Shown: one piece after another, positions 601 through 14,897 of the stretch
Layout of the letters: the number at the start of each line of letters is the position of its first letter
Position numbering within the stretch: the first letter of the stretch is position 1
Source of the DNA: Acrocarpospora corrugata
GTDB taxonomy: Bacteria; Actinomycetota; Actinomycetes; Streptosporangiales; Streptosporangiaceae
Reading direction: 5' to 3'
DNA: 64,000 nucleotides
Assembly: GCF_009687845.1 (NCBI RefSeq)
Contig: NZ_BLAD01000070.1
Coordinates: forward strand, 1-64,000
Made by a program: the position numbers and the translations under genes
Notes under the pieces: generated by a model
The model's input: only the letters and a program-made list of their open reading frames with translations
Told to the model about the DNA's origin: nothing
Databases searched by the model: none

Positions 601-1062
601 TTAAATGGCGGTGGTCACCATGATGCCGACCTCCACGGGGCTGTCCAGCGGAAGCCGGGCCGCGCCGACGTTGGTGCGGACGTGGCGGCCGGTCTCGCCG
701 AAGAGGTCCACCATGAGGGTGCTGGCGCCGTCGAGCACGGCCGGGTGCCCGGTGAAGCCGGGGCCGCAGGCGATGTGCCCGGTCACGCTGAGCACCCGGG
801 CGATGCGGTCGATCCCGCCCAGGATCGCCGCGGCCGCGGCGACGGCGTTCAGGGCCGCCTGGCGGGTCAGGGCCGCCGCCTGCGCCACGGTGACGTCCAC
901 GCCGACCAGCCCGGTCAGCGGCAGCGCGCCGTCGACGAAGGGGAGCTGGCCGGTGGTGATCACCAGGTCGCCGTGCCGGACCGCGGGGACGTAGGCCCCC
1001 ACGGCCGCGGGCACGGCGGGCAGCGTCAGGCCCAGGGCGGCGAGCCGCTCGGACGGCGGCAT
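601..1062 (-). CDS. RidA (YjgF/YER057c/UK114) family protein
   Basis: This 153-residue protein belongs to the RidA superfamily, whose characterised members are trimeric deaminases that hydrolyse reactive enamine/imine intermediates. Visible family signatures are TTGQLPFVDG near residue 36, NAVAAAAAILGG near 72 and the C-terminal ARLPLDSPVEV. The last contains Arg136 at the position of the catalytic arginine of canonical RidA. The ATG at 1062 overlaps the upstream pxpC stop (TGATG), so it is the last gene of the nine-gene operon and translationally coupled. Its job here is probably to clear a reactive or cyclic imine by-product of the lactam pathway; that is inferred from position. Confidence 0.85.
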   Translation of the reverse strand: MPPSERLAALGLTLPAVPAAVGAYVPAVRHGDLVITTGQLPFVDGALPLTGLVGVDVTVAQAAALTRQAALNAVAAAAAILGGIDRIARVLSVTGHIACGPGFTGHPAVLDGASTLMVDLFGETGRHVRTNVGAARLPLDSPVEVGIMVTTAI

Positions 1063-2036
1063 CAGCGAGTCGCCTCCAACGCCTCGCGCAGCCTGGCGGC
1101 CCTGGCCTGATCGTCGGCGCGAGCCCGCAACGCCTCGTCGAGGGTCACCGGCACGAACCGGGTGCGCGTTCCCGGCGAGCACTGCGCGACCCTGTTCAGG
1201 TCGGCGCTGATCACCGTCGCGACCATGGCGTAGCCGCCGCCGGAGACCGCGTCGCGGTGCAGGATGATCGGCTCGACTCCGCCGGGCACCTGGATCGAAC
1301 CGATCGGGTAGCCGGCGTCCACGATGTTGGAGGGGTCGGATCCGGCGCCGAACGGCTGGATCCGCTCCTCCCACTCCAGGACGGGACCGGAATACCGGAA
1401 ACCGGTGCGGTCCGCGACCGGGGTCAGCGTCCACTCCGACTCCAGCAGGCAGTTGCGGCCCGCCTCGGTCAGCCGGTAGTCGTACAGGCCGAGGACGACC
1501 CGGAGTTCGATCTCGCGGCGGTAGGCGGGGCGCAGTTCCTCGGGGACGGCCCTGCCGGGGCCGCCGTTCGCCCGGCCGACCGGGATCACGTCACCTTTTC
1601 GCAGGTTCCTGCCGCCGAAGCCGCCGAAGCCGCCCAGCGCGTACGTGGACCTGCTGCCCAGCACCACGGGCACGTCGAACCCGCCGGCGACGGCGATGTA
1701 GATCCGCGCGCCCGCCCGCAGGAATCCGAAGGTCAGCTGGTCTCCGGCCGCGACCGGGAAGGACTCCCACTGCGGTGCGGGCGCGCCGTTGAGCAGCGTC
1801 GGCATGGTGGCGCCGGTGACGGCCACCACCGCGGGCGCGTCGAACATCAGCGCGGGCCCCATGTACGGCGCCTCGATGACGGCGGCGTCGGGGGGATTGC
1901 CGACGAGCAGGTTGGCCGTGACGGCGGCGCGCAGGTCGGCCGCGCCCGACGGCGGGATGCCGACGCTGTAGTAGCCCGGCCGCCCCCGGTCCTGGATGCT
2001 GGCGGCCAGCCCGGGCTCGATGATCTCAACTGCCAT
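1062..2036 (-). CDS. pxpC: 5-oxoprolinase subunit C / biotin-dependent carboxyltransferase-like (KipA family)
   Basis: 324 residues, full length for the KipA/PxpC family (carboxyltransferase C/D-like domain). The N-terminus (EIIEPGLAASIQDRGRPGY) is the family's hallmark, followed by SGAADLRA and the GGF repeats near 135-145. In bacteria PxpC works with PxpA and PxpB as ATP-dependent 5-oxoprolinase, turning 5-oxoproline into glutamate. The same fold forms half of the carboxyltransferase domain of urea carboxylase. It starts 11 nt inside pxpB and its stop touches ridA. With biotin carboxylase and BCCP genes in the same operon, a biotin-dependent reaction is also plausible. Confidence 0.93.
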   Translation of the reverse strand: MAVEIIEPGLAASIQDRGRPGYYSVGIPPSGAADLRAAVTANLLVGNPPDAAVIEAPYMGPALMFDAPAVVAVTGATMPTLLNGAPAPQWESFPVAAGDQLTFGFLRAGARIYIAVAGGFDVPVVLGSRSTYALGGFGGFGGRNLRKGDVIPVGRANGGPGRAVPEELRPAYRREIELRVVLGLYDYRLTEAGRNCLLESEWTLTPVADRTGFRYSGPVLEWEERIQPFGAGSDPSNIVDAGYPIGSIQVPGGVEPIILHRDAVSGGGYAMVATVISADLNRVAQCSPGTRTRFVPVTLDEALRARADDQARAARLREALEATR

Positions 2037-2931
2037 AGAGGGCTCCCAGAAGTTCGGCGTTGTAACCGTCGGGGTCGGCCAGCAGACGGTCCAGGTCGAA
2101 GGTGACCGGCCGCTGCCGGTACCGGTAGGCGCCGGCCTCGACCTCCGCGCGGATGGCGTCGTACTCGGCGTTGTCGATGCTGCGGAACTTCACGATGTCG
2201 CCGGGGCGGAAGAACACCATGAAGTCGTTGAAGTCGGCGAGCCGCTGCTCCGGGTCGAAGATCGGCACCGGGGTCACGCCGAACATCTGGTAGCCGCCCG
2301 CGCCGCGTACCGAGTAGATGCAGGCGAAGCAGCCGCCGTGGCCGATGGTCAGCGCCGGGGTGTCGGTGCGCGGCCGCAGGTACTTCGGGAGCTCCAGCTG
2401 CCGTTCCTGCGGGACCATCTGGAACATGAACGGCAGGCCGGCCACGAAGCCGACCATGGACGTGATCCAGGGCGAACCGGAGTGGGCGTCGATGAACGCC
2501 TGGACCGAGTCCATGTCGTTCTCGACGGCGGCGAACTCCAGGTCGTTGCCCTCAGGCCGCTGGTGCCGGTCCCGGAACCTGGACCCGGTCTCGTTGGTGA
2601 ACGGGTCGTCGTACCAGACCGGGACCTCGAAGATCCGGGTCTCGACGCTCCGGGCGGGTGCTCCGGCGACCTGCTCCTCCGCCGCCCGTACCCTCGCCTC
2701 GACAGCGGCGGGCGCCGCCACGTCGGGGTCGAACCTGATCAGCAGAGACGCGTTCGCGGGGCAGATGTCCACGATCCCGGGCAGCCGGTCGTCGTTCAGG
2801 ATCTTCGACACCGCCATCGCGGTGAAGTTGACCTCAAGGCTCATGGCCTCGGCGAACTGGACGACCAGATGCTCGTCGCCGCCCCAGGAGTATCGACTCT
2901 CGCCTGATCTACGCAAGATGTGCTCCTTCAC
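2026..2931 (-). CDS. pxpB: 5-oxoprolinase subunit B / allophanate hydrolase subunit 1-like (KipI family)
   Basis: About 300 residues of the KipI/PxpB (CT_C_D) family. Visible signatures include GGDEHLVVQF near the N-terminus, FVAGLPFM in the middle, and TPALTIGHGGCFACIYS, GGYQMFGVTPVPIF and FRPGDIVKF near the C-terminus. It pairs with PxpC. Two starts are possible. GTG 2931 overlaps the accC stop (GTGA), as in most junctions of this operon. TTG 2916 is preceded by a much better Shine-Dalgarno (AAGGAG, 6 nt spacing) and would give 296 residues. I list the longer form; the start is unsettled. Confidence 0.92.
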   Translation of the reverse strand: MKEHILRRSGESRYSWGGDEHLVVQFAEAMSLEVNFTAMAVSKILNDDRLPGIVDICPANASLLIRFDPDVAAPAAVEARVRAAEEQVAGAPARSVETRIFEVPVWYDDPFTNETGSRFRDRHQRPEGNDLEFAAVENDMDSVQAFIDAHSGSPWITSMVGFVAGLPFMFQMVPQERQLELPKYLRPRTDTPALTIGHGGCFACIYSVRGAGGYQMFGVTPVPIFDPEQRLADFNDFMVFFRPGDIVKFRSIDNAEYDAIRAEVEAGAYRYRQRPVTFDLDRLLADPDGYNAELLGALYGS

Positions 2932-4280
2932 TTGCCGGCGCCGCCGGCGATCCAGTCTTCGAGGAAGGTCGTGTGGTACAGGCCCTCGCGGAACTCCGCG
3001 ACGCCGATCACCCTGCGCAGGAAGCTCGCGGTGGTGGCGACGCCCTCGACCTCGACCTCGTCCAGGGCCCTGGCCATCCGGGCGACCGCCGCCGCTCTGC
3101 TGTCCGCCCAGACGACGATCTTGGCGAGCAGGGAGTCGTAGAACGGGCTGACCTCGCTGCCCGGCCCGAAGCCCGAGTCGATCCGGACGAACGGGCCGCC
3201 CGGCATCCGCATGGAGGTGATGACGCCGGGACTGGGCATGAACCCGAAGTCCGGGCTCTCGGCGTTGAGCCGGATCTCGATGGCGTGGCCGCGGAACTCC
3301 ACGTCCGACTGGGCGAACGACAGGGGAGCGCCGGAGGCCACGGTGAGCTGCTCGCGGACCAGGTCGCGGCCGGTGACCATCTCGGTGACCGCGTGCTCCA
3401 CCTGGATCCTGGTGTTCATCTCGATGAAGTAGAACTCCCCGCGCGCGGAGTCGTAGAGGAATTCGACGGTGCCCGCGCCCGAGTAGCCGGAGACCTTGGC
3501 CAGCGCGACGGCCGCCTCGGTCATCGCGGTGCGCACGTGCTCGGGCAGGCCGGGCGCGCCGGCCTCCTCGATCACCTTCTGCCGCCGCCGCTGCATCGAG
3601 CATTCGCGTTCGCCCAGGTGGACGAAGTTCTGCCCGTCGCCGAACACCTGCACCTCGATGTGCCTGGCGTTCGGGACGAACCTTTCGATGTAGACCAGTC
3701 CGCTGCCGAAGGCCGCCTGGGCCTCCGCCCTGGCGACGGGCAGCGCCTCGGTGAGCTCGGCGGCGTCGGCCACCACGCGGATGCCGCGCCCGCCGCCGCC
3801 GGCCGCGGCCTTCACCGCGACCGGGTATCCGGCCTGCTCCGCCTCGGCCAGCGCTTCGGCCAGGCCGTCGACGGGACCGGTGGAGCCGGGTACGGTCGGC
3901 ACGCCCGCCGCCTCGGCGGCGGACCTGGCCCTGGCCTTGTCGCCCATCAGCCGGATCGTCTCCGCGGACGGCCCGACGAAGGCGAGCCTGGCCGCGGTGA
4001 CCTTCTCGGCGAACTCGGCGCGCTCGGACAGGAAGCCGTAGCCGGGGTGCACCGCGTCCGCGCCGAGGTCCACCGCCGCGGTGACGATGACGTCCATGTT
4101 CAGGTAGCTGCGGGACGCGGCCGGCGGGCCGATCAGCACCCGCTCGTCGGCCAGCTTGACGTGCAGGGCGTCCTGGTCGGCCTCGCTGTACACGGCCACG
4201 GTGCCGATCCCGAGCTCCCGCGCGGCCCGGATGACGCGCACCGCGATCTCACCGCGGTTGGCGACAAGCAGCTTGCGCAC
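2928..4280 (-). CDS. accC: Biotin carboxylase subunit
   Basis: 450 residues, the normal length for a free-standing biotin carboxylase, which uses ATP and bicarbonate to carboxylate biotin on a BCCP. It starts RKLLVANRGEIAVRVIRA; HPGYGFLSE lies at about 78-86 and the glycine-rich ATP-grasp loop GGGGRGI at about 161-167, followed by the catalytic EFLYD and EMNTRIQVEH segments. The gene sits 5 nt after the BCCP gene and overlaps or nearly abuts pxpB. As no acetyl-CoA-type carboxyltransferase is present, the partner transferase is most simply PxpB/PxpC, making a split urea-carboxylase-like enzyme (inference). Confidence 0.95.
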   Translation of the reverse strand: MRKLLVANRGEIAVRVIRAARELGIGTVAVYSEADQDALHVKLADERVLIGPPAASRSYLNMDVIVTAAVDLGADAVHPGYGFLSERAEFAEKVTAARLAFVGPSAETIRLMGDKARARSAAEAAGVPTVPGSTGPVDGLAEALAEAEQAGYPVAVKAAAGGGGRGIRVVADAAELTEALPVARAEAQAAFGSGLVYIERFVPNARHIEVQVFGDGQNFVHLGERECSMQRRRQKVIEEAGAPGLPEHVRTAMTEAAVALAKVSGYSGAGTVEFLYDSARGEFYFIEMNTRIQVEHAVTEMVTGRDLVREQLTVASGAPLSFAQSDVEFRGHAIEIRLNAESPDFGFMPSPGVITSMRMPGGPFVRIDSGFGPGSEVSPFYDSLLAKIVVWADSRAAAVARMARALDEVEVEGVATTASFLRRVIGVAEFREGLYHTTFLEDWIAGGAGK

Positions 4281-4285
4281 CGCGA

Positions 4286-4531
4286 TCAGCCCTTCTCGAC
4301 GGTGAGGATGCCGTCCCCGGGGCCGATGATGCTCTCGTTCTCCGCGTGGATCTCCGTCACCGTGCCGTTCACCCCGGCCTTGACCTCGGCGAACTGCTTC
4401 ATGACCTCGACCAGGCCGACGGTGGTGTCCGCGGTGACCACGGAGCCGACCTCGACGAAGGGCGGCTGGTCGGGCGACGGCTTGGTGTAGAAGATGCCGG
4501 GAAGCGGAGACTGCACGACGTGTTCAGACAT
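4286..4531 (-). CDS. accB: Biotin carboxyl carrier protein (short form)
   Basis: An 81-residue single-domain biotinyl protein. The expected biotinylation loop is VEVMKQF with Lys45 as acceptor, instead of the EAMKM of fatty-acid BCCPs; EVMK is usual in the short BCCPs encoded next to KipI/KipA genes. It lacks the long Ala/Pro-rich N-terminal arm of AccB. The ATG at 4531 overlaps the upstream pxpA by 8 nt. It would shuttle carboxybiotin from the AccC-like subunit to PxpB/PxpC. Confidence 0.9.
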   Translation of the reverse strand: MSEHVVQSPLPGIFYTKPSPDQPPFVEVGSVVTADTTVGLVEVMKQFAEVKAGVNGTVTEIHAENESIIGPGDGILTVEKG

Positions 4532-5279
4532 GGTGGGCCTTTCCGGATACGGAATCCTGCGAGTCGATGACGGTTCTGATGGCGGTGGCCACCTCGACGG
4601 CGTTCGGCGTGTCCGAGTGCACACAGACCGTGTCGAATTTCATGGGGACCCGCTCGCCGGTGACGGCGATGGCCACGCCCTCGGTGAGGGCGACGGTCAT
4701 CCGCTCCACGGCGCGCTCGACCGGGGTGGCGTGCGGCCGGCGGGCGATGATCAGCCCACCGTCGGCCGCGTACTCGAGATCCACGTAGAACTCGGCGAGG
4801 AACGGGATGCCCCGGGCGGCGGACACCCGCTCGTGGGCCGTGCCCGCCATTCCGTAGATCGGGACCTCGTACTGCGCGGCGACGTCGCAGACCGCGTCCA
4901 TCAGCGCCTCGTCCCGCGACACCATGCCGTACAGCGAGCCGTGCGGCTTGATGTGGTCGAGCTGGACACCCGCCGCGTCGAGGAAACCCTTCAACGCGCC
5001 GACCTGGTACTGCACGATGTCGCGTACCTCCTCGGGGAAGAGCTTCATCTCCCGCCGTCCGAAGCCGACCAGGTCGGGCAGCCCCGGGTGGGCGCCGATG
5101 GTGATCCCGGCGGCGGCCGCGCCGGTGACGGTCTCCCGGATTCCGCTCGGGTCGCCGGCGTGGAAACCGCAGGCCACGTTCGCCGTGTCGATGAGGCCCA
5201 GCAGCGCCCGGTCGTTCCCGAAGGAGTGGATCCCGAAGGATTCCCCCATGTCAGAGTTGAGGGTGATCTTCATGTTCAT
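4524..5279 (-). CDS. pxpA: 5-oxoprolinase subunit A (LamB/YcsF family)
   Basis: 251 residues, full length for the YcsF family. Visible signatures are LNSDMGESFG at the N-terminus, ANVACGFHAGDP near 34-45, GAHPGLPDLVGFGRR near 62-76 and HIKPHGSLYG near 108-117; the conserved His and Asp residues form the active site. PxpA supplies the hydrolytic half of prokaryotic 5-oxoprolinase. The ATG at 5279 overlaps the permease stop (ATGA); a second ATG at 5273 is possible. The family also includes lactam-utilisation proteins, so the substrate need not be 5-oxoproline. Confidence 0.93.
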   Translation of the reverse strand: MNMKITLNSDMGESFGIHSFGNDRALLGLIDTANVACGFHAGDPSGIRETVTGAAAAGITIGAHPGLPDLVGFGRREMKLFPEEVRDIVQYQVGALKGFLDAAGVQLDHIKPHGSLYGMVSRDEALMDAVCDVAAQYEVPIYGMAGTAHERVSAARGIPFLAEFYVDLEYAADGGLIIARRPHATPVERAVERMTVALTEGVAIAVTGERVPMKFDTVCVHSDTPNAVEVATAIRTVIDSQDSVSGKAHHV

Positions 5280-6307
5280 ACCTTTCCGGCGTACACGGCC
5301 ACCGCGAGCCGGCTGCGCAGGCGATCGGCGACGACGGCCAGCGCCAGGACGGCCCCGGTGACGATCATTTGGTAGTAGGAGTTGATCTGCGCCAGGTTCA
5401 TGCCGTTGGCGACGATCCCGATGAACACGGCGCCCAGCACCGCGTCGATGACCCGGCCGGAACCGCCGCGCAGGCTGACCCCGCCGATGACGGCCGCGGC
5501 GATCGTCTGGAGCGGCAGGGACGCGCCGAGGTTCGCCTCCCCGGTCTCGATGCGCGCGGTGAGCAGCACCGAGCCGATGGCCGCGAGCCCGCCGGCCGCC
5601 ACGTAGGCCAGGAGCAGGGTGCGGAACTCGCTGATCCCGGAGAGCCTGGCCGCCTTGGGGCTGGAACCGACCGAGTAGATGTGGCGGCCAGGACGGGTCA
5701 GCGTCAGCAGGACCCAGAGGCCGGCGGCGGCCAGGGCGGCGATCCAGATCGGGACGCCGATCCCGAAGATCTTGTTGAAGCCCAGCCAGTCGCTGAACTC
5801 CACCGGCAGCCCGGCGACCGGCACGCCCGAGGTGAGCATCAGCGCCAGTCCGGAGAACGCCGAGGCCGTGGCCAGCGTCATGATGAACGGGTTGATGTTC
5901 AGGCTCGCGATGCCCAGGGCGTTGACCAGCCCGCAGCCCATGCCGACCAGCATGCCGACGGCGATGCCGACCAGGACCGCGGTCAGCGGCGAGGACGACT
6001 CCGCCTGCGCGACCATGGCCATCGCGGTGCTCACCGAGACCAGCGCGGTCACCGCGCCGATCGACAGGTCGAACCCGCCGGTCAGCAGCACGATGAACTG
6101 GCCCAGGGTGGCGATGACGATGTAGGAGTTCTGCCGCAGCGCCGAGTGGATGTTCTCCACGGTCAGGAAGTTGTCCGACATGCTGGCGAACACCACCAGC
6201 GCGACCAGGACCAGGACGGGCAGCACGCCGATCTTGACGAACCCCCGGGCGGCGAGCGAGACCATCAGGTTGCGCGGTCGCGCGACGGCGGGACTGCTGG
6301 CGGTCAT
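5276..6307 (-). CDS. ABC transporter permease (ribose/RbsC type)
   Basis: 343 residues with about nine hydrophobic segments and the BPD_transp_2 pattern seen in RbsC-type permeases: a GGFDLSIGAVTAL segment near 95 and GGVSLRGGSGR near the C-terminus. It forms the membrane channel for the ATPase encoded just upstream; the ATG at 6307 overlaps the ATPase stop (ATGA). Only one permease gene is present, so it probably acts as a homodimer. Substrate is not deducible from this subunit; the operon suggests a small nitrogen compound or lactam. Confidence 0.9.
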   Translation of the reverse strand: MTASSPAVARPRNLMVSLAARGFVKIGVLPVLVLVALVVFASMSDNFLTVENIHSALRQNSYIVIATLGQFIVLLTGGFDLSIGAVTALVSVSTAMAMVAQAESSSPLTAVLVGIAVGMLVGMGCGLVNALGIASLNINPFIMTLATASAFSGLALMLTSGVPVAGLPVEFSDWLGFNKIFGIGVPIWIAALAAAGLWVLLTLTRPGRHIYSVGSSPKAARLSGISEFRTLLLAYVAAGGLAAIGSVLLTARIETGEANLGASLPLQTIAAAVIGGVSLRGGSGRVIDAVLGAVFIGIVANGMNLAQINSYYQMIVTGAVLALAVVADRLRSRLAVAVYAGKV

Positions 6308-7821
6308 GCGATGTCCTTTGCTGCTGGTTCGCCCCAATGCATCATGTGGCGCAAGATCATTTCCTCGTTGATGTCGGCCCCGGTCAGCTCCGCGGTGATC
6401 TGCCCGTGCGAGAACACGTACACGCGGTGGCACAGGTGCAGGATCTCCGGCAGCTCGGACGAGACGACCAGCACGGCGCTGCCCGCCCGGGCGAGCGCCA
6501 CGATCCGCTCGTAGATCGTCACCCGGGCGCCGACGTCCACGCCGACGGTCGGCTCGTCCAGCAGGTACGTGGTGCACTCCCCGAGCAGGGCCCGCCCGAG
6601 CAGGCCCTTCTGCTGGTTGCCGCCGGAGTAGCTGGCCGCGGGGCGCTCCGGGTCGGCCGGGCTCAGCTGCATCCGGCGCAGCATGTCACCCGCCACCGCG
6701 CGCTCCCGCCCCGGTCGCAGCAGCGGGCCGGTGGACATGGGCGCCCGGCGCAGCCACGGCAGGGTGACGGTCTCCCGCAGCGGCCGTTCCAGGAACAGCC
6801 CTTCCTGCTTGCGGTCACTGGGCAGGTAGACCACGCCGGACTTCATGACCGCGGCGGGTTTGGCGCCGGTCAGGTCCTGCCCGGCGATGGTGACCGTGCC
6901 GGAGTCCACCCGCTCCAGGCCGAAACAGGCGCGGGCCGCGGCGGACTTGCCCGAGCCCATCAGCCCGGCGAAACCGACGATCTCCCCGGCGCGCAGCTCG
7001 AAACTCGCGTTCCGTACCGAGCCGTCGAAGGTGGTGAGGCCGCGCGCGGCGAGCACCACATCGGTGCCGGGGACGGGCAGTTCGGGGTAGAGGTCCTCCA
7101 CCACCCGGCCGGTCATCAGGTTGATCAGCTGCTCGTCCGGGGTGTCGCCGGGGACCGTGGTGACCAGGCGGCCGTCCCGCAGCACGGTCACCCGGTCCGC
7201 GAGCCGCCGGATCTCGGCCATCCGGTGGGTGATGTAGATGATCCCGATGCCGCGCCCGCGCGCCTCCTCGACCAGGGCGAACAGCCGCTCGGCCTCCTCA
7301 TCGGTGAGCGAGGCGGTCGGCTCGTCCAGGATCAGCACGCTGAGCTCGGGCCGGAACGCCTTGGCGATCTCCACCATCTGCTGTTCGGCCCGGCTCAGCG
7401 TCTCCACCAGCCGGTCGGGTGCGATGCGGAAGCCGAACTCGTCCAGGCGCTCCCGCGCCAGCCTCCTGATCCGGCGCCGGTCGACGAAACCGAACCTGCC
7501 GGGCTCGCTGCCCATCACCAGGTTCTCCGCCACGGTCATCGTGGGCATCAGCGAGAACTCCTGGAACACCGCGCTGATGCCCAGCGCGCGTGCGGCCGCG
7601 ACGCCGGACAGTTCGACGGCCCGGCCGCCGGCCTCGATGGTCCCGCCGTCCGGGCGCTGCGCCCCCGAGACGATGGAGATGAGGGTGGACTTCCCGGCGC
7701 CGTTCTCGCCGAAGAGCACATGCACCTCACCGCGGCGGAGGTCGAAGTCCACCTGGTCGAGCGCGGTGACGCCCGGGTACTTCTTGGTCAGCCCGCGGAC
7801 CCGAAGCACAGGTTCGGTCAT
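6304..7821 (-). CDS. ABC transporter ATP-binding protein, two nucleotide-binding domains (RbsA/MglA type)
   Basis: 505 residues with two fused ATPase domains. The first has Walker A GENGAGKST (about 38-46), the signature-like LSRAEQQMVEIAKA and LILDEPTAS. The second has GLMGSGKSA, YSGGNQQKGLLGRAL and YLLDEPTVGVD. RbsA-type ATPases of this layout are usually sugar importers, but the partner solute-binding protein here is TorT-like. ATG 7821 is chosen; an in-frame TTG at 7830 gives three more residues. It starts 10 nt after the binding-protein stop. Confidence 0.93.
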   Translation of the reverse strand: MTEPVLRVRGLTKKYPGVTALDQVDFDLRRGEVHVLFGENGAGKSTLISIVSGAQRPDGGTIEAGGRAVELSGVAAARALGISAVFQEFSLMPTMTVAENLVMGSEPGRFGFVDRRRIRRLARERLDEFGFRIAPDRLVETLSRAEQQMVEIAKAFRPELSVLILDEPTASLTDEEAERLFALVEEARGRGIGIIYITHRMAEIRRLADRVTVLRDGRLVTTVPGDTPDEQLINLMTGRVVEDLYPELPVPGTDVVLAARGLTTFDGSVRNASFELRAGEIVGFAGLMGSGKSAAARACFGLERVDSGTVTIAGQDLTGAKPAAVMKSGVVYLPSDRKQEGLFLERPLRETVTLPWLRRAPMSTGPLLRPGRERAVAGDMLRRMQLSPADPERPAASYSGGNQQKGLLGRALLGECTTYLLDEPTVGVDVGARVTIYERIVALARAGSAVLVVSSELPEILHLCHRVYVFSHGQITAELTGADINEEMILRHMMHWGEPAAKDIA

Positions 7822-7831
7822 CGGAGACAAC

Positions 7832-8965
7832 TCAGCTGCCGGCCTTGACCTGGAACGTGGGGGACCAGCCGTCGGGGGCCAGCGTGGTGGACACGTCGAA
7901 GTCCTTCAGCGTGTCCTTGGTGACCATGACGAGCTCGGGCCCGACATGCTGCTGGAAGTCCTTCTTCTCCAGCGCGCGGATGGCCTGGTCGATGGCGATC
8001 CGGCCCTGGATGGCGGTGCTGTCGCTGGGCGCGGCCTGCACGGTCCCGCGCTCGATGCCGGTGTACGTGCCCGGCGTGAAGTAGTAACCGGCGACGCGGA
8101 TCTTGTCGGTCAGGCCGCGGTCCCGCAGGATCGGCCCGGCCGCCTCGGCGGTGACCGCGGTGCCGACGATGTAGTCGATGTCGGGGTGCGCGGCGAGCAC
8201 GTCCTCGATCAGCTGGCTCTGCGCGTCCTTGCCGGTGTCGCCCCACTTGGTGTCGACGATCTCCACCGGGCTGCCGGCCAGGGCGCCCTTGAAGCCGCGC
8301 TCGCCGTCCTCGGACCAGCCGGCGCCCTTCGGGCCGGGGAACCAGGCGACCTTGACCGGCTGACCGGCCGAGTCCTTGACCACCCATTCGGCGGCGATCT
8401 GGGCGAGGTCGTGGAAGGAGACGAGCGACTTGGCGGTGACCTTGGGGCTGGACATGCCGTTGATGACGTCGATGACCGGCTTGCCGGCGGCGGCCAGCCG
8501 TTCCACCGTGCTGTTCAGCCCGTCGAAGGAGATGGCGCCGATGACCACGGCGTCCGCGCTCTGCGCGCAGTCCTCGACCTGCTGGATCTGCTTGTCGATG
8601 TTCTCGTAGCCGCCCGCCTCGACCATCGTCATGTTGACGCCGGCCTCGCGCGCCTGCTCGGCCACGCCGTAGTTCAGGCCGAGCCAGTAGGCGTCCTTCA
8701 TGTGAGGTACGGACACACAGATGTTCCACGGCTTCTCGGCTTTGCCGACGGGGGCGTACTCGGCCTTGCTGCGCGCGCTGTCCATGGACAGGTCGGCCCA
8801 GACGTCGACTTTGGCCGGGGCCCAGCTCTTCGCGGCCGCCGTGGTTTCCGCGGCAGGGCCGGCCGCGGAGCCGGAGTCGGTGGGGGTGGACGAGCCGCAG
8901 GCCGACAGCGCCAGAGTGGCGGCGGCCGCGGTCGCGAGGACGGCGGAATAGCGTGTGAACTGCAC
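7832..8965 (-). CDS. TorT-like periplasmic-binding lipoprotein of the ABC importer
   Basis: 377 residues. A lipoprotein signal peptide ends in LALSAC with Cys23 as the lipidation site, then an Ala/Thr linker. The core resembles the TorT branch of periplasmic binding proteins: CVSVPHMKDAYWLGLNYG, then EAGGYENIDKQIQQVEDC. TorT itself senses TMAO with the TorS kinase; ABC-linked relatives exist. As the first gene of the operon it probably defines the imported substrate. The start is GTG 8965 behind AAGGGGAG at 7-nt spacing. I know of no substrate for this subgroup. Confidence 0.85.
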   Translation of the reverse strand: MQFTRYSAVLATAAAATLALSACGSSTPTDSGSAAGPAAETTAAAKSWAPAKVDVWADLSMDSARSKAEYAPVGKAEKPWNICVSVPHMKDAYWLGLNYGVAEQAREAGVNMTMVEAGGYENIDKQIQQVEDCAQSADAVVIGAISFDGLNSTVERLAAAGKPVIDVINGMSSPKVTAKSLVSFHDLAQIAAEWVVKDSAGQPVKVAWFPGPKGAGWSEDGERGFKGALAGSPVEIVDTKWGDTGKDAQSQLIEDVLAAHPDIDYIVGTAVTAEAAGPILRDRGLTDKIRVAGYYFTPGTYTGIERGTVQAAPSDSTAIQGRIAIDQAIRALEKKDFQQHVGPELVMVTKDTLKDFDVSTTLAPDGWSPTFQVKAGS

Positions 8966-8985
8966 GAATATCTCCCCTTAGGGGG

Positions 8986-9000
8986 TTCCGCATGCCGGAA
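8986..9000. promoter_or_regulatory. Candidate operator in the divergent binding protein / pucR promoter region
   Basis: A perfect 5-5-5 inverted repeat, TTCCG-CATGC-CGGAA, lies 20 nt upstream of the GTG start of the binding-protein gene in the 168-base gap between the operon and the divergent PucR regulator. A second short palindrome, GCAATTGC, lies at 9092-9099, closer to pucR. Either could be the PucR-family binding site. No experimentally known motif is matched. Confidence 0.4.
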
Positions 9001-9133
9001 CTACGCAGGTCGGTGGGATGGGAGCAGTCAACAGCGAGGCTCTTCGCAGCGTCTACGTGCGGCGTGGCCAAGCTCAAACGCCATGTACTGTGCAATTGCC
9101 TAACACGGGTGATTTATCGGGAGGAATGCCCCC

Positions 9134-10627
9134 ATGGCGTTGAGCTTGGATCAGCTCATGGCCGAGACCGTCCTGGAGCTCAGCCTGGTCACGCCCACCA
9201 GCCCTGACCTGCTGAAACGCGCGGTCCGCTGGGTGGCGTCCACCGAACTCGTGGACCCCGCGCCGTTCCTGCGGGGCGGTGAGCTGCTGCTCACCACCGG
9301 TGCCTTCATCCAGGCGAACGATCAAGAGGGATGGCGGACCTTCGCGGATCGGCTTAAGCACAAAAGGGTCACGGCCATCGGCTTCGGATGCGGGCTGACC
9401 CACGCCGACGTGCCCCGGGCCCTGGTGGAGAGCGCCACCGCGGTGGGGCTGCCGGTGCTCCTGGTGCCGTACAGCGTGCCGTTCGTACGGATCAGCGAGT
9501 TCGTGGCCGACATGATCGTCGCGGACCGGTTCAAGGACATGGGCCGGGCGTCCAACCTCGCCGCGGAGCTGGCGCAGCTCATCTCCAACGAAGCGCCGCT
9601 GATGACCCTGCTCGGGCGGATCGCCGAGGAGATCGGCGGCGAGGCGGCCATCCTCGACATCGACGGCAGGGTGGTGGCGAGCTGGCCGCTGCACCGGGAA
9701 TGGCGGATGGACCTGGTGCTGCAGGGACTGGCCACCAGCGGGACGACCGGATACCACGCGGTGCCGCTCGACCAGGCGGGCGCGCACGACCACATCCTGG
9801 TCGGCCGCTCCGGGATGGCCGTGGAGAGCGTCCGGATGGCGATGAGCTCGGCCGCGACACTGGTCGCCATCGACCTGACCCGCAGGTTGCAGGAGGAGCC
9901 GTCGAACGCGACGCGGATGGCCGCGGTGCTCACTGGCCTGACCGACTGGACCACGCCCACCCCGACCCTGGTCCGGGCGCTGCGCGTGGCCGGCTTCGAG
10001 AGCGACGTGCCCACCGTCGTCCTGCTGGCCGCGCCGAAACCCGCGTTCTCGGCCGGCTACTCGCTGCGCCTGCGCCTGGCCGTGGAGCAGGTGCTGCCCG
10101 TGGTGCGCTCGGTGCGCAGCGGCGAGCTTCTGGTGCTGTTCGCCCAGGGCGGCACCGGCGACACGACCGGCGAGGTCCTCGAAGTCCTGCGCCGGGAGAT
10201 GCCCGGCCGGGCGATCGTGGTGGCCGGGCCCGCCAGGGACGCCGAGGAGATCCGCCTGGTGCTCGCCTCGGCCCGGGCGATGGTCACAGAAGAGCTGGCC
10301 AGACCGCAGCGCTCCCGCGCGTTCGACCTGACCTCGATCGTGGCGGCGGCCGCCGGGCGGGGCGGCCAGCACGCCGCGCGGGAGGTGCTGCAACCGCTGA
10401 TCGACCACGACGCCAAGGCCGACGGTCAGCTGACGCACACCCTCCGGACCTACCTGCGGCTGGACGCCAGGCAGCACGCGACGGCCGAAGCCCTGCACGT
10501 GCACCGCAACACGCTGCGGTACCGGCTGACTCAGATCGGCAGGCTGCTCGAAGCGGACCTGGACAGCCTGGAGACGCTGGTGATCTGTAACCTGGCCTTC
10601 CGGTTGTACGACGCGGCCGGCGGCTGA
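9134..10627 (+). CDS. PucR-family transcriptional regulator
   Basis: 497 residues with the three-part PucR architecture. The N-terminal PucR/PurC-like sensor covers about 10-125 (FLRGGELLLTTGAF). A central GGDEF-like region follows. The C-terminal HTH_30 domain lies near 435-490 (ATAEALHVHRNTLRYRL). Members activate purine, GABA, ornithine/proline and other nitrogen-catabolic operons. A good Shine-Dalgarno (GGGAGGA) precedes ATG 9134. It is divergent from the transporter/lactam operon, the usual arrangement of a PucR activator and its target. The ligand is probably the imported compound or a product (inference). Confidence 0.92.
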   Translation: MALSLDQLMAETVLELSLVTPTSPDLLKRAVRWVASTELVDPAPFLRGGELLLTTGAFIQANDQEGWRTFADRLKHKRVTAIGFGCGLTHADVPRALVESATAVGLPVLLVPYSVPFVRISEFVADMIVADRFKDMGRASNLAAELAQLISNEAPLMTLLGRIAEEIGGEAAILDIDGRVVASWPLHREWRMDLVLQGLATSGTTGYHAVPLDQAGAHDHILVGRSGMAVESVRMAMSSAATLVAIDLTRRLQEEPSNATRMAAVLTGLTDWTTPTPTLVRALRVAGFESDVPTVVLLAAPKPAFSAGYSLRLRLAVEQVLPVVRSVRSGELLVLFAQGGTGDTTGEVLEVLRREMPGRAIVVAGPARDAEEIRLVLASARAMVTEELARPQRSRAFDLTSIVAAAAGRGGQHAAREVLQPLIDHDAKADGQLTHTLRTYLRLDARQHATAEALHVHRNTLRYRLTQIGRLLEADLDSLETLVICNLAFRLYDAAGG

Positions 10628-10635
10628 CGGAACGC

Positions 10636-11235
10636 TCAGCCGTCGCCTTCGCCACGGGCGGCGAGCGCCTCGCCCAGCTCGTCGGCGTGCCGCAACGTCC
10701 TGACCAGGAAGGGCACCGCGAACGCGGGGATCGAACGCTCCGCGCCGCGGGCCTTGGCGGCCTCCCGCACCTCGGCGGAGATCATGGACAGGGCGGCCAC
10801 CGCCTGCAGGGTGAGCCCGATCAGCAGGCCGACCCGGTCCGGTCTGACCCCCAGCCGGGTGAACGGCCGGAGCCCGCGCTCCACCGCGAACACCAGGTCC
10901 TCGACCCGGGTGGTGACGGTGAACAGGTTGGCGGCGGCCAGCGCCGCCACGATCCGCAGGCACACCACCAGGGCCTGGCCGGCGCCGAGCAGCCACCACT
11001 GCATCGCGAACACCAGCAGCACGAGCATCCCGAGCATCCGGGCGAGCTGCAGGCACCGCCGGGGCGTGACCCGCGCCACCGCGTACCCGAGGAGCACGGC
11101 CGCGCAGACGCCGCCCAGCCAGACCGGCGACCGCAGCGCGAACACCAGTGCCGCGAGCGCGAGCACGGCCAGGAACTTCCACCCGGCGGGGATCCGGTGC
11201 AGCGGGCTGGTCCCCGGTTCGTACCAGCCGGTCAT
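10636..11235 (-). CDS. bioN: ECF transporter T component (BioN/EcfT type)
   Basis: 199 residues with about five membrane segments and the two Ala-Arg-Gly coupling motifs of EcfT proteins in the cytoplasmic helices (AKARGAE and ALAARGEG near the C-terminus), through which the T protein contacts the ATPases. It is the last gene of the biotin uptake operon; the ATG at 11235 overlaps the bioM stop by four bases. With BioM and BioY it would form a dedicated ECF biotin importer. Confidence 0.88.
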   Translation of the reverse strand: MTGWYEPGTSPLHRIPAGWKFLAVLALAALVFALRSPVWLGGVCAAVLLGYAVARVTPRRCLQLARMLGMLVLLVFAMQWWLLGAGQALVVCLRIVAALAAANLFTVTTRVEDLVFAVERGLRPFTRLGVRPDRVGLLIGLTLQAVAALSMISAEVREAAKARGAERSIPAFAVPFLVRTLRHADELGEALAARGEGDG

Positions 11236-11906
11236 GTGACGAGCGTCCGGTAGTGCCGCAGCGCGTGCTCCGGCCGGTCGTCGGCCACCACGCGGCCCTC
11301 GTCGAGCACGATGACGCGGTCGAACGATTCGAGCAGGTCGAGGTCGTGCGTGACCAGGACGATCTGCTGCCGCAACCCGGTGAGCCGCTCGACGAACCGC
11401 CGTTTGTTGCGCAGGTCCAGCAGCGTCGTCGGCTCGTCACAGACCAGCACGTCGGGATCGAGCACGAGCATCGCGCACAGCGCGAGCAACTGCTTCTGCC
11501 CGCCGGAGAGCTGGTGCGCCGGATGGTCGGCGTAGCCGTCCAGCCCGTATTCGGCCAGCGCCTGGGCCGCCCGTTCTGCGCGCTCCCGCTTGGACAGTCC
11601 GCTGCGCCGCAGCGAGAACGCCACGTCCTCGCCCGCGGTCGGCATCACGATCTGGCTGTCCGGGTTGGCGAAGACGAACCCGACCCGGCGGCGGACCTCG
11701 CGGCCGTCGCGGCTCGGGTCGAGGCCGTCCACCCGGACCCGGCCGCTGGTCGGAGGCACCAGGCCGTTGATCATGCGGGCCAGGGTGGACTTGCCGGAAC
11801 CGTTCGCGCCGACGAAGGCCACCCGCTGCTCGGCCAGCCGCAGGTCCACGCCGGACAGGACGACCCGGTCGCCGTACCGGTGCCCCACATCCGCGAACTC
11901 GATCAC
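11232..11906 (-). CDS. bioM: ECF transporter ATPase (BioM type)
   Basis: 224 residues, GTG start overlapping the thiolase stop (GTGA). Walker A is GANGSGKST (about 33-41), followed by the Q-loop region FANPDSQIV, the signature LSGGQKQLLAL and Walker B VLVCDEPTTLLD. NPDSQ and the short length are typical of CbiO/BioM ATPases of ECF importers. It energises BioY-BioN. Only one ATPase gene is present, so the ATPase pair is probably a BioM homodimer. Confidence 0.92.
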   Translation of the reverse strand: MIEFADVGHRYGDRVVLSGVDLRLAEQRVAFVGANGSGKSTLARMINGLVPPTSGRVRVDGLDPSRDGREVRRRVGFVFANPDSQIVMPTAGEDVAFSLRRSGLSKRERAERAAQALAEYGLDGYADHPAHQLSGGQKQLLALCAMLVLDPDVLVCDEPTTLLDLRNKRRFVERLTGLRQQIVLVTHDLDLLESFDRVIVLDEGRVVADDRPEHALRHYRTLVT

Positions 11907-13027
11907 GACACGGCCTCCCAGGTCGTCGCCACGCCGACGCCGCCGCCCGCGGACAGGGCGGCGAGGCCGAAGCCCGAACCGCGCCGCCGGACCAGGGTCG
12001 CGAACAGCCGGACCACCAGCACGGCACCGGAAGCCCCCCACGGGTGCCCCAGCGCGATCGCGCCGCCGTCCGGACTGACCGTGTGCTCGTCGATGCCGGC
12101 GCTGTCCAGGCAGGCCAGAGTCTGGCCTGCGAACGCCTCGTTGAATTCGACCACGTCAGGCGTGCGGTCGAGTACGGACTTGATCGCGGGCACCGCGCCG
12201 AGGCCGAGCCGGTTCGGATCCACGGCCGAAGTGGCCGAGGCGACCAGCCGCAGGCCGGGCAGCCCGTGGCGGCGCCGATAGGCCTCGCTCACCAGCAGCA
12301 CAGCCGCCGCGCCGTCATTGACCCCGCAGGAATTGGCCGCGGTGGCGGTGCCGTCCGGCGTGAAGGCGGGCCGGAACCTGGCCAGGCGTTCCACCGTGAA
12401 GCCGGCGCGTGGCCGTTCGTCCCGATCGACACCGCCGATCGGGACAAGCTCGGCGGTGAACCGGCCCGCCCGCTGGGCGCGTACCGCCCTGGCATGGCTG
12501 CGAACGGCGAAGGCGTCCTGACGCTCCCGCGAGATCCCGGCCTCGGCGGCCACCAGGTCGGCGGCGGGGCCCATGTCGGGGTCGCCGATCTCGGCCGGCG
12601 CGAACGGCGCCCGAGTGTAGAAGTCCGGCGGTTCGTCGCCCGCTCGCGCGGGCCAGGCGCGCAGCGGGGCGGTGGAGGCGCTCTCCACGCCCCCGGCCAG
12701 GTACGCCTCACCCGCGCCCGCACGGATCATCGCCGCCGCGAGCACGATCGCCGCGAGGCCGCTGGCACACTGCCGATCCACGGTCAGCCCCGGCACCTCA
12801 TGACCGAGGCCGGCGCGCAGGGCCGCGACCCTGGCCGGGTTGCCGCCCGGCCCGAAGACGTTGCCGAGCAGCACGTCGTCCACCGTGTCCAGGCCCGCGT
12901 CGGCCAGCACGGCCCGCAGCACCGGCGCGGCCAGCTCGTCGGCGGCGAAACGGCGCAGCGCGCCACCCGCGCTGCCGATCGGGGTGCGCCTGGCCGCCAC
13001 GACGACCGGTGTCAGGTCGCCGGTCAC
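11903..13027 (-). CDS. Thiolase-family protein embedded in the biotin operon (YhfS-like)
   Basis: 374 residues. The nucleophilic cysteine is present in VDRQCASG (Cys87) and the catalytic histidine in ALGHPWGASG (His328). The second cysteine usual in acetyl-CoA acetyltransferases (LCxGGG near the C-terminus) is replaced by serine (LSAGGG, Ser359). NEAFAGQ is present. The GTG start overlaps the stop of the ligase gene. In Bacillus subtilis a thiolase-like and a ligase-like gene (yhfS, yhfT) accompany a second bioY homologue (yhfU), so this looks like the same association. The role could be salvage or breakdown of a biotin precursor or side chain (inference). Confidence 0.87.
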   Translation of the reverse strand: MTGDLTPVVVAARRTPIGSAGGALRRFAADELAAPVLRAVLADAGLDTVDDVLLGNVFGPGGNPARVAALRAGLGHEVPGLTVDRQCASGLAAIVLAAAMIRAGAGEAYLAGGVESASTAPLRAWPARAGDEPPDFYTRAPFAPAEIGDPDMGPAADLVAAEAGISRERQDAFAVRSHARAVRAQRAGRFTAELVPIGGVDRDERPRAGFTVERLARFRPAFTPDGTATAANSCGVNDGAAAVLLVSEAYRRRHGLPGLRLVASATSAVDPNRLGLGAVPAIKSVLDRTPDVVEFNEAFAGQTLACLDSAGIDEHTVSPDGGAIALGHPWGASGAVLVVRLFATLVRRRGSGFGLAALSAGGGVGVATTWEAVS

Positions 13028-14325
13028 CGCAGCGGCTCCGCGGCCAGCGTGCCGTCGAGCAGCTGCTGCGCGACGACGGCGCGGGCGGGCTTGCCCGACG
13101 CCGTTCTGGGCAGCGCCGTGGTCGCCAGCCAGCGCCGTGGCCGCTTGCCGGGTTCCAGACCGGCCCGCGCCGCCGCGCGGAGCTCGCGCAGCGTGGGCCG
13201 CCCATCGGCGGCGGTCTCGACCACGGCGGTCACGATCGCGCCGAGCGTCGGATGCGGGGTGCCGGCGACCAGCACGTCCGCCACCGCGGGCACGGCGCGT
13301 AGCACCGCCTCGACCTCCGCCGCGGCGACCAGCCTGCCGCCGCTGGACACGACGGCGCCGGCCCGGCCCCGCACGGTCAGCAGGCCGCCATCGTCGATGT
13401 CGACCTGATCGCCCACCGTGGACCACTCCCGCGCGGGCGACAGCGCGCCCTGATCCAGCCGGCCGCCGTACGCCAGCGGCGATTTCACCCACAGCAGGCC
13501 GTCCCTGACCTCCAGCCGCACGCCCGGGACCGGGCGCAGGCCGCCGTCGCCACGCCGCACCGCGATCAGGGAATGCTCCGCCGAGCCGTAGTACTCGACC
13601 AGCTCCGCCCCGGGCAGCAGCCGGGCGAACCGCTCCCGCGTCCGGTCGCCCAGATGCGCGCCACCGCAGACCACGCTGCGCAGAGCGCAGCCGCGCCGCA
13701 GTCCGGGGTCGTGCTCCAGCACGTCGAGCAGTCCCGCCAGCATGGCGGGGACCAGGTGGACGGTGGCGCACCGCCGCGCGGCCAGCGCGGCGGCCTCCGG
13801 TTCCCAGCGGGTCAGCGGCAGGATCGGCCGGCCGCACCAGAGCGCGTGCAGGGCGCCGAACAGGAACAGCGACGAGCTGAGCGGGCCCGGGATCAGCACC
13901 GGGCCGGGCAGCGGGCCGAGCGCGGCGAAGCTGCCCAGCCACGACCCGCGGTCCCGGATCAGCACCTTCGGCCGGGCACTGCTGCCCGAGGTCGTCGGCA
14001 GGTAGAAGAACGTGCCGTCGTCGCCCGCCGGCGCCATGCCGTCCGCGCTCGGTTCCGCGACGCCGGTGGCTACCAGGACCGGGCGCGCGTCGGCGAGCAC
14101 CGCGTCCCGCTCGCGCGGCGTCCAGGCCGGCTCGACCACCAGGCAGGCCGCGCCGAGCAGGTCCGCCCCGAGGAACCAGGGCAGCGGGTCAGGCGAATCC
14201 ACCGCCACCCGCGAACCTTCGGCGACCCCGCGATCGGCCAGCCACCGCGCGGCTCCGTGCGCCCGCGCGAGCGGCTCGGCGGGAACCGCGCCCGAGCCGA
14301 CGATCGGCGGCGTGGCGAGCCTCAC
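13024..14325 (-). CDS. AMP-dependent acyl-CoA synthetase-like protein (YhfT-like)
   Basis: 433 residues, about 100 shorter than a typical acyl-CoA ligase. Adenylate-forming motifs are present: the phosphate-binding loop TSGSSARPK (near 112-120), EYYGSAEHS (motif A5), TVGDQVDID (motif A7-like) and LPRTASGKPAR near the C-terminus with the catalytic lysine. It lies between bioY and the thiolase with four-base overlaps on both sides. It would activate a carboxylic acid, possibly a pimelate-like or biotin-derived acid, as its CoA ester. The substrate is not deducible from sequence. Confidence 0.85.
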   Translation of the reverse strand: MRLATPPIVGSGAVPAEPLARAHGAARWLADRGVAEGSRVAVDSPDPLPWFLGADLLGAACLVVEPAWTPRERDAVLADARPVLVATGVAEPSADGMAPAGDDGTFFYLPTTSGSSARPKVLIRDRGSWLGSFAALGPLPGPVLIPGPLSSSLFLFGALHALWCGRPILPLTRWEPEAAALAARRCATVHLVPAMLAGLLDVLEHDPGLRRGCALRSVVCGGAHLGDRTRERFARLLPGAELVEYYGSAEHSLIAVRRGDGGLRPVPGVRLEVRDGLLWVKSPLAYGGRLDQGALSPAREWSTVGDQVDIDDGGLLTVRGRAGAVVSSGGRLVAAAEVEAVLRAVPAVADVLVAGTPHPTLGAIVTAVVETAADGRPTLRELRAAARAGLEPGKRPRRWLATTALPRTASGKPARAVVAQQLLDGTLAAEPLR

Positions 14326-14897
14326 GCGGACCGTTTCGCCGATCCCGCCAGCTGTCCCGGCAGAGCACGGTAGAGCAGGGCGGCGATCAGCGAGACCACC
14401 ACGACCTTGGCCACGTCACCCGGCAGGAAGGTCAGCGACTGGACCGCCGCGGCCGGCAGGTCGCCGGTGTAGAAGCCAAGCCACGGCACGCCGATGAGGT
14501 AGTCGGCGGCCAGCCCCGCCGCGTTGGCGGCCAGCAGCACGGGCAGCCCCGGGCGCTTCGCGCGCGCCACGATGAGACCGGCGACCAGGGCGGACAGGAT
14601 CCAGCCCAGCAGGAAGCCGCCGCTCGGGCCGAGGAACGGGCCGATCCCGGCCCGGCCGCCGGACAGCAGCGGCAGGCCGAGCGCGGTCAGCGCCAGGAAC
14701 AGCGCGACGGACATGGCCCCGCGGCGGGCGCCCAGAAGGCTGCCGGCCAGCAGCGGGCCGGCGTTCTGCAGCACGATGGGGATGCCGGAGGTGCCGACGT
14801 AGACGCCGGGGAAGATGCCGAGCACCGCGATGAAGGCGGCGAAGACCACGGTCCTGGCAAGGTCGGCGGCGGGGAGGGGAGCACGGGAACCTGACAC
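14322..14897 (-). CDS. bioY: Biotin transporter substrate-binding component BioY
   Basis: 191 residues with about six hydrophobic segments and the BioY pattern: GIPIVLQNAGPLLAGSLLG near 38-56, then GPSGGFLLGW and WLGFYTG. BioY is the biotin-binding S component of ECF transporters and is the promoter-proximal gene here. The neighbouring operon encodes a biotin carboxylase and a biotinyl protein, so uptake of the cofactor next to its use is coherent. Confidence 0.94.
   Translation of the reverse strand: MSGSRAPLPAADLARTVVFAAFIAVLGIFPGVYVGTSGIPIVLQNAGPLLAGSLLGARRGAMSVALFLALTALGLPLLSGGRAGIGPFLGPSGGFLLGWILSALVAGLIVARAKRPGLPVLLAANAAGLAADYLIGVPWLGFYTGDLPAAAVQSLTFLPGDVAKVVVVSLIAALLYRALPGQLAGSAKRSA

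Follow-up and report, generated by a model that had tools for sequence, protein, structure and literature searches.

A Conserved Biotin-Linked Operon in Acrocarpospora corrugata That May Encode a Lactam Amidohydrolase and Its Importer

PxpABC is reportedly the ATP-dependent 5-oxoprolinase of prokaryotes. We analyzed a 64,000-nucleotide stretch of the Acrocarpospora corrugata genome (contig NZ_BLAD01000070.1, positions 1 to 64,000; hereafter, the window) that contains a nine-gene operon of similar design, with PxpA and two subunits of carboxyltransferase (CT) fold, from which ATP-driven opening of a lactam would likewise be expected. The operon departs from PxpABC in having Lys for Arg at the CT base, PxpB- and PxpC-like subunits with scores below the cut-offs for those proteins, a dedicated biotin carboxylase (BC) and biotin carboxyl carrier protein (BCCP), and an importer of another type. 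With urea carboxylase and urea amidolyase (K. lactis structures 3va7 and 5i8i), it shares BC, BCCP, the CT A/B and C/D parts, and the general-base Lys; unlike them, it distributes these parts over four separate proteins rather than one chain, has Asp or Glu for a motif Trp, and has PxpA in place of allophanate hydrolase. Taken together, its sequences probably encode a biotin-dependent lactam amidohydrolase and a dedicated importer that supplies it.

Two other described systems invite comparison. Lactam opening by the caprolactamase CapAB and by OplAB needs ATP and bicarbonate, and a carboxylated lactim is one of three intermediates proposed for CapAB (mechanism C), according to the accessible parts of the reports (PMC8453981, PMC11033972). 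The same use of ATP and bicarbonate is proposed for the operon. Unlike it, CapAB and OplAB are of the HyuA/HyuB type, and those parts describe neither a BC nor a BCCP subunit for them (PMC8453981, PMC11033972); Pfam detected no HyuA/HyuB domains among the nine operon genes. In Pseudomonas aeruginosa, PA0493-PA0496 include a biotin-requiring protein and a BC homologue discussed together with fatty-acid synthesis, and the accessible part of this SigX paper gives the precise function of PA0493 and PA0494 as unknown (PMC6249292). The locus of P. aeruginosa PA7 (L133) carries the full five-gene set described below. PA0493-PA0496 is probably the same operon as the cluster studied here, where we presume that PA0492-PA0496 corresponds to the PA7 locus. 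The gene families are known, and similar clusters are found across many bacteria and in some archaea; public records annotate the set piecemeal, as acetyl-CoA carboxylase, allophanate hydrolase, and 5-oxoprolinase. A literature search, mostly outside subscription papers, found no published function for the cluster among the papers listed.

The nine genes occupy positions 601-8965 of the minus strand. Counting from the promoter side, they are:

7832-8965, minus strand: TorT-like solute-binding lipoprotein (SBP), 377 amino acids (aa), GTG start; PF13407, PF00532
6304-7821, minus strand: ABC importer ATPase, 505 aa, two ABC stretches; PF00005 twice
5276-6307, minus strand: ABC permease of the ribose/allose type, 343 aa; PF02653
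4524-5279, minus strand: PxpA (LamB/YcsF), the proposed ring opener, 251 aa; PF03746 (E 2.7e-84), NF003814 over its cut-off
4286-4531, minus strand: BCCP, 81 aa; PF00364, NF005457 at 104.8 (cut-off 87)
2928-4280, minus strand: BC, 450 aa; PF00289, PF02786, PF02785, NF006367 (PRK08591) over its cut-off
2026-2931, minus strand: CTCD, PxpB-like carboxyltransferase subunit C/D, 301 aa; PF02682, proposed general-base Lys183
1062-2036, minus strand: CTAB, PxpC-like carboxyltransferase subunit A/B, 324 aa; PF02626
601-1062, minus strand: RidA/YjgF-family protein, accessory, 153 aa; PF14588

A gap of 10 bases separates the SBP and ATPase genes, and a gap of 5 separates those for BCCP and BC. The remaining junctions are overlaps: 4 bases for ATPase-permease, permease-PxpA, and BC-CTCD, 8 for PxpA-BCCP, 11 for CTCD-CTAB, and 1 for CTAB-RidA. 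A preliminary description of this DNA had named PxpABC, BC, BCCP, a TorT-like importer, and RidA, joined by overlaps or gaps of about 10 bases or less, and every one of these parts was found so arranged. The most likely start of CTCD is GTG 2931 (301 aa), as in close relatives; the ATPase and permease most likely start at ATG 7821 and ATG 6307, respectively. The SBP has an LSAC lipobox (read by eye) and passed TorT model NF008185 (377.2; cut-off, 200) but not TIGR02955 (259.8; cut-off, 310). In BCCP, the presumed biotin-accepting residue is Lys45, within EVMKQF.

The operon is not peculiar to A. corrugata. When 200 genomes of the same order were searched with CTCD, 13 contained relatives of at least 48% identity (group I); the search also returned stand-alone proteins near 30% identity (group II), urea carboxylases in fused form, and, as weak matches, ordinary PxpB. 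Named genomes, when scanned, gave at least 569 confirmed relatives, and the best 80 of these were retained. The set was also present in annotated plasmid records of Thioclava, Diaphorobacter, Ruegeria, Azospirillum, Shinella, Phyllobacterium, Sulfitobacter, Rhizobium, Aestuarium, and two Haladaptatus archaea. The loci examined span Actinomycetota, Pseudomonadota, and a haloarchaeon. Their gene content was determined by tblastn; gene calling by GC3 had missed RidA and some BCCP.

All five core genes (PxpA, BCCP, BC, CTCD, and CTAB) were found in 98 of 105 group I loci, a count in which one locus appears twice (as L039 and L065), and 91 of the 98 complete loci have them on one strand in the order PxpA-BCCP-BC-CTCD-CTAB. 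Thus, the association of the five genes is far beyond chance. Among the seven incomplete loci, L072 and L131 consist of short contigs, each about 4 kb long. The biotin-accepting lysine of BCCP is present in 99/99 group I loci with a BCCP match. Of seven positions that we take to represent the BC site, six are invariant in 100/100 loci, and the seventh varies (E, 53 loci; D, 46; A, 1). Judged by these residues, BC and BCCP look intact and co-conserved. The two genes at the margins of the set are less constant among the 80 loci of named genomes, with a RidA match in 4 and a PucR match of at least 60 bits in 34.

The host genome contains five BC-domain places and two CT_C_D places, the latter in open frames of 307 and 740 aa, neither of which is a long fused urea carboxylase. 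The second CT_C_D place lies on contig 57 and belongs to a plain pxpA-pxpB-pxpC set (L003, 5245-7525) with no BC or BCCP match within 12 kb around it. Where they align, the window proteins and this PxpABC share 30 to 39% identity. Genes resembling a peptide-type ABC importer adjoin it (by eye). For comparison, the contig-57 locus was combined with 20 loci chosen from the weak matches listed; PxpA occurs in 12 of these 21 stretches. None of the 21 ordinary PxpB loci has a BC or BCCP match.

The two sets differ at a probable catalytic position. The accessible part of the report on KlUA names Lys1605 as its likely general base and describes severe inhibition of isolated yeast urea carboxylase by the K1605A substitution (PMC5770610). 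This Lys (its position counted by hand) aligns with the Lys of LPKYLRPRTDTP in CTCD, residue 183 of 301. With one fragment lacking the column set aside, Lys occupies it in 101/101 group I sequences (window included), 13/13 group II sequences, and 13/13 urea carboxylases, whereas 21/21 ordinary PxpB have Arg. The solved chains of PxpB type in the alignments likewise have Arg: PH0987, B. subtilis KipI, M. smegmatis Msmeg0435, E. coli YbgJ, and TTHA0988, the last two read against the contig-57 PxpB. Further columns set group I and urea carboxylase apart from ordinary PxpB/PxpC, several of them being gaps in the ordinary set; fewer columns show group I and the ordinary set agreeing with each other and differing from urea carboxylase. 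CTCD also scores higher against the urea_carbox profile than against PxpB (100.2 versus 78.7 bits). On these alignments, CTCD is not an ordinary PxpB. Nor is the group I pocket that of urea carboxylase: the Trp of the RTWT motif of urea carboxylase is replaced by Asp in 97 and Glu in 4 of the 101 group I sequences.

The predicted fold of CTCD, too, resembles that of urea carboxylase. The model has a mean predicted local distance difference test score (pLDDT) of 80.9, with values of <50 at residues 186-198 and 200-211, near Lys183. In Foldseek, urea carboxylase was the best match to the model (E 1.7e-17, versus 2.5e-12 for the best PxpB-type chain). VIA-align gave Z scores of 20.2 (3va7, 270 residues) and 16.2 (5i8i, 269 residues), as opposed to 13.0-14.9 over 185-195 residues for full-length PxpB-type chains; the aligned range ends at model residue 288 with urea carboxylase and at 250-265 with the PxpB-type chains. 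As modeled, CTCD therefore lies closer to urea carboxylase than to the solved chains of PxpB type.

In a PxpA tree of 122 sequences (a single FastTree run, midpoint-rooted), the window protein falls into a clade of 69 with a support of 0.994. This clade consists of 67 PxpA from BC-linked loci, one from a locus without BC (Nakamurella, L106), and one from a group II locus. A second clade with a support of 1.0, lying near ordinary PxpA, comprises 24 proteobacterial group I sequences, including two from Pseudomonas loci without BC. Since group I PxpA fall into two clades, the BC/BCCP/CT module pairs with more than one PxpA lineage. In group II loci L051-L054, a stand-alone CT with a urea-carboxylase-like KYNPTRTWTAEG motif lies beside PxpA, BC, and PucR-type genes; L051 and L052 also contain a BioY-like gene.

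From the gene content, conservation, residues, and fold computed here, we infer the following catalytic steps. The TorT-like ABC importer would bring in a small cyclic amide. BC, with ATP and bicarbonate, would carboxylate biotin on BCCP, as the conserved residues suggest. CTCD and CTAB would form a urea-carboxylase-type carboxyltransferase that, on the evidence of alignment and fold, could deliver the carboxyl group to the nitrogen of the ring, Lys183 acting as the general base. The resulting N-carboxylated lactam, an analogue of allophanate, would be opened by PxpA, and after opening the carbamate would lose CO2 to yield an amino acid. By analogy with urea amidolyase, N-carboxylation may be expected to ease hydrolysis of the amide.

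Neighboring genes offer a lead to the substrate. Clustering of neighbors recovered class III aminotransferases and succinate-semialdehyde dehydrogenases (SSADH). Four loci (L117, L120, L128, and L185) have GabT over the TIGR00700 cut-off and SSADH over the TIGR01780 cut-off, and a Ruegeria locus (L059) is annotated likewise with both. In Enterovibrio (L117), a single same-strand run reads SBP-ATPase-permease-PxpA-BCCP-BC-CTCD-CTAB-gabD-gabT, which is the gene order of the window with gabD-gabT replacing RidA. The operon-adjacent gabT is the only one over the cut-off in 4/5 such genomes; in the window's own genome, a gabT over the cut-off lies elsewhere, on contig 90. A gabT gene adjoins 7/27 loci with a TorT importer, as opposed to 0/83 others (Fisher P = 2.8e-5, uncorrected for relatedness between loci; five genera), with limits (GabT, 350 bits; SBP, 150 bits) that were set after the scores had been seen. 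This contrast by importer type was sought after a replication attempt, described below, had failed. At a looser limit of 1e-20, 14/104 loci have a class III aminotransferase, and six of these lack the TorT importer. By a rough estimate resting on five genomes chosen for having a gabT neighbor, 0.36 such neighbors were expected by chance, versus 5 seen in the 80 loci of named genomes.

The link between gabT and the TorT importer suggests 2-pyrrolidone or a similar lactam. For the TorT-importer clusters, the likeliest substrate is 2-pyrrolidone, with gamma-aminobutyrate (GABA) as the product, followed by delta-valerolactam, which remains a candidate because DavT and DavD of 5-aminovalerate metabolism resemble GabT and GabD. 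Elsewhere, relatives of an annotated allantoin permease, which has no Pfam or NCBIfam match, adjoin 12/110 loci, HyuAB lies near 5/104, and other branches have ABC, SDR, and polysaccharide-deacetylase genes nearby. Since neighbor genes vary by branch, substrates probably differ between branches.

Other oxidative genes were noted near the core. A phenol/methane-hydroxylase-type oxygenase occurs in six loci (L078, L089, L093, L103, L114, and L132), four from Nocardia and one each from Streptomyces and Saccharopolyspora, and the four Nocardia loci also have an SSADH-like gene. Iron-sulfur or FAD subunits of the molybdenum-hydroxylase type lie near L042, L058, L066, and L073 (the last by clustering only); enzymes of this type can make lactams from cyclic imines. 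In Azospirillum thermophilum (L186, 3791-6235), torA, which encodes trimethylamine N-oxide (TMAO) reductase, adjoins an operon with a TorT-like SBP.

Several observations weigh against a biotin-dependent lactamase. One locus (L049) lacks BC, and four (L050, L106, L138, and L140) lack both BC and BCCP; L106 from Nakamurella and L138 and L140 from two Pseudomonas genomes nevertheless keep a Lys-type CT and PxpA. BC and BCCP matches elsewhere in these three genomes resemble other biotin enzymes, with AccBC-like pairs in two of the three. Either other BC proteins serve there in trans or biotin is dispensable. Conversely, an Arg-type PxpB adjoins BC and BCCP in Lactiplantibacillus (L179), and an Arg-type fused PxpBC lies beside a 570-residue BC protein in S. 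meliloti (L183, pRM41A). The title of PDB entry 9yx5 describes the Arg-type PxpBC-like pair MSMEG_0435-0436 bound to a long-chain acyl-CoA carboxylase complex; our literature search found no text on this entry. Most relatives, like the window's operon itself, have no GABA genes, and such genes were found in 0/6 further plasmid loci outside the discovery set, only one of which has the TorT importer.

A strict rule, by which Lys would mean BC nearby and Arg none, was therefore rejected, having exceptions in both directions; L180 and L181, two further loci of the Arg type, gave no match to BC. The exceptions weaken Lys as an absolute marker and leave the association of Lys with BC standing. The three Lys-type loci without BC and BCCP are natural tests of whether housekeeping AccBC can serve. 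The preliminary description had proposed that a split urea-carboxylase-like set activates a lactam or amide. That proposal gains from the CT-base Lys, the CTCD fold, and the intact, co-conserved BC and BCCP, and it is tempered by relatives without dedicated BC/BCCP, by Arg-type PxpB beside BC, and by a substrate that we infer from neighbors. The cluster is real and conserved, an apparently uncharacterized, biotin-linked variation on the PxpABC/urea-carboxylase theme that most likely works as a biotin-dependent lactamase. With moderate confidence, we further propose that it is the first biotin-dependent lactamase, working by N-carboxylation through biotin followed by opening by PxpA, widespread in bacteria and present also in haloarchaea, with a TorT branch converting 2-pyrrolidone to GABA.

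The operon could instead encode a 5-oxoprolinase of the PxpABC type, with 5-oxoproline as the substrate, glutamate as the product, and BC/BCCP as a helper or a variant activation route. PxpA scores over the PxpA subfamily cut-offs, and the Lactiplantibacillus locus combines Arg-type PxpBC, BC, BCCP, and PxpA with an NRAMP-type transporter, the family to which the accessible part of one report assigns the 5-oxoproline transporter PxpT (PMC13274462). Although PxpA, CT_C_D, and CT_A_B subunits share one operon (PF03746, PF02682, PF02626), CTCD and CTAB score well under the PxpB and PxpC equivalog cut-offs (TIGR00370, 78.7 versus 145.55; NF045499, 192.8 versus 500), the CT base is Lys in place of Arg, the host has its separate ordinary PxpABC, and neighbors indicate GABA rather than glutamate in the 7/27 TorT-type loci. 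We consider this explanation unlikely. The sequence evidence and the second PxpABC accordingly favor the earlier suggestion of a substrate other than 5-oxoproline.

Another alternative is a urea carboxylase in split form, or an enzyme that carboxylates some other open-chain amide or ureide, PxpA being the second-step hydrolase. It would account for the CT residues and fold and for the allantoin permease relatives beside the 12 loci. The replaced RTWT Trp speaks against it, as do the window's importer, which is of another type than the allantoin permease, and the lack of an amidase-type allophanate hydrolase among the nine operon genes by Pfam, the rest of the genome not having been searched. 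The separate operon proteins each score far below the urea carboxylase TIGR02712 cut-off (1,303.85 bits). This explanation seems to us quite improbable. An acyl-CoA carboxylase with a functionally unrelated PxpA, as implied by public records that name BC and BCCP acetyl-CoA carboxylase subunits and by the matching models, is very improbable, given that Pfam detected no acyl-CoA-type carboxyltransferase among the nine genes, where CT is of the PF02682/PF02626 type, and that PxpA accompanies the other four genes in 98/105 loci.

Upstream of the operon lie two further features:

8966-9133: 168-bp intergenic region with presumed divergent promoters
9134-10627, plus strand: divergent PucR-type regulator; PF07905, PF13556

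An alignment of five sequences, the window and four relatives, showed conserved blocks in the intergenic region, and an operator search there returned one weak 9-nucleotide palindrome-like repeat. In C. glutamicum, GABA use is under a PucR-type regulator, according to the accessible part of the report (PMC7652997), an analogy that agrees with the proposed substrate but carries little weight.

Beyond pucR, positions 10636-14897 encode a CbiQ-type permease, an ABC ATPase, an AMP-binding enzyme, and a BioY protein, which looks like a biotin importer cluster adjoining the biotin-linked operon; a thiolase-like frame was also noted there by eye. BioM-like genes follow pucR in two relatives (G144 and G141), and none were seen in the shorter flanks of two others (G110 and G132). 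The window's BioY had no match at 1e-20 in other loci, where the stretches of the closest relatives end before the BioY position. In Rhizobium CIAT894 (L184), SSADH, carbonic anhydrase, and bioB lie in a row downstream. Biotin supply as a regular neighbor was considered and rejected: bioB matches in 7/104 group I loci versus 0/23 ordinary loci make no real contrast, since the ordinary set is small (352 kb of sequence, versus 1,934 kb for group I). At the left edge of the window, a short frame at 86-274 with no Pfam match resembles, by eye, the final part of a maturase from a group II intron.

Known substrates of biotin enzymes include CoA esters, pyruvate, and urea, according to the accessible part of one report (PMC3199775). 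If the proposed reaction is correct, hydrolyzing a cyclic amide by way of biotin would be a further type of reaction for these enzymes, and a function would be assigned to a gene set now annotated in pieces. The CT base, Lys or Arg, offers a single-residue marker that helps to separate the carboxyltransferases from ordinary PxpB. If the substrate lead also holds, the operon would account for the use of 2-pyrrolidone by some bacteria; this industrial lactam is the monomer of nylon-4.

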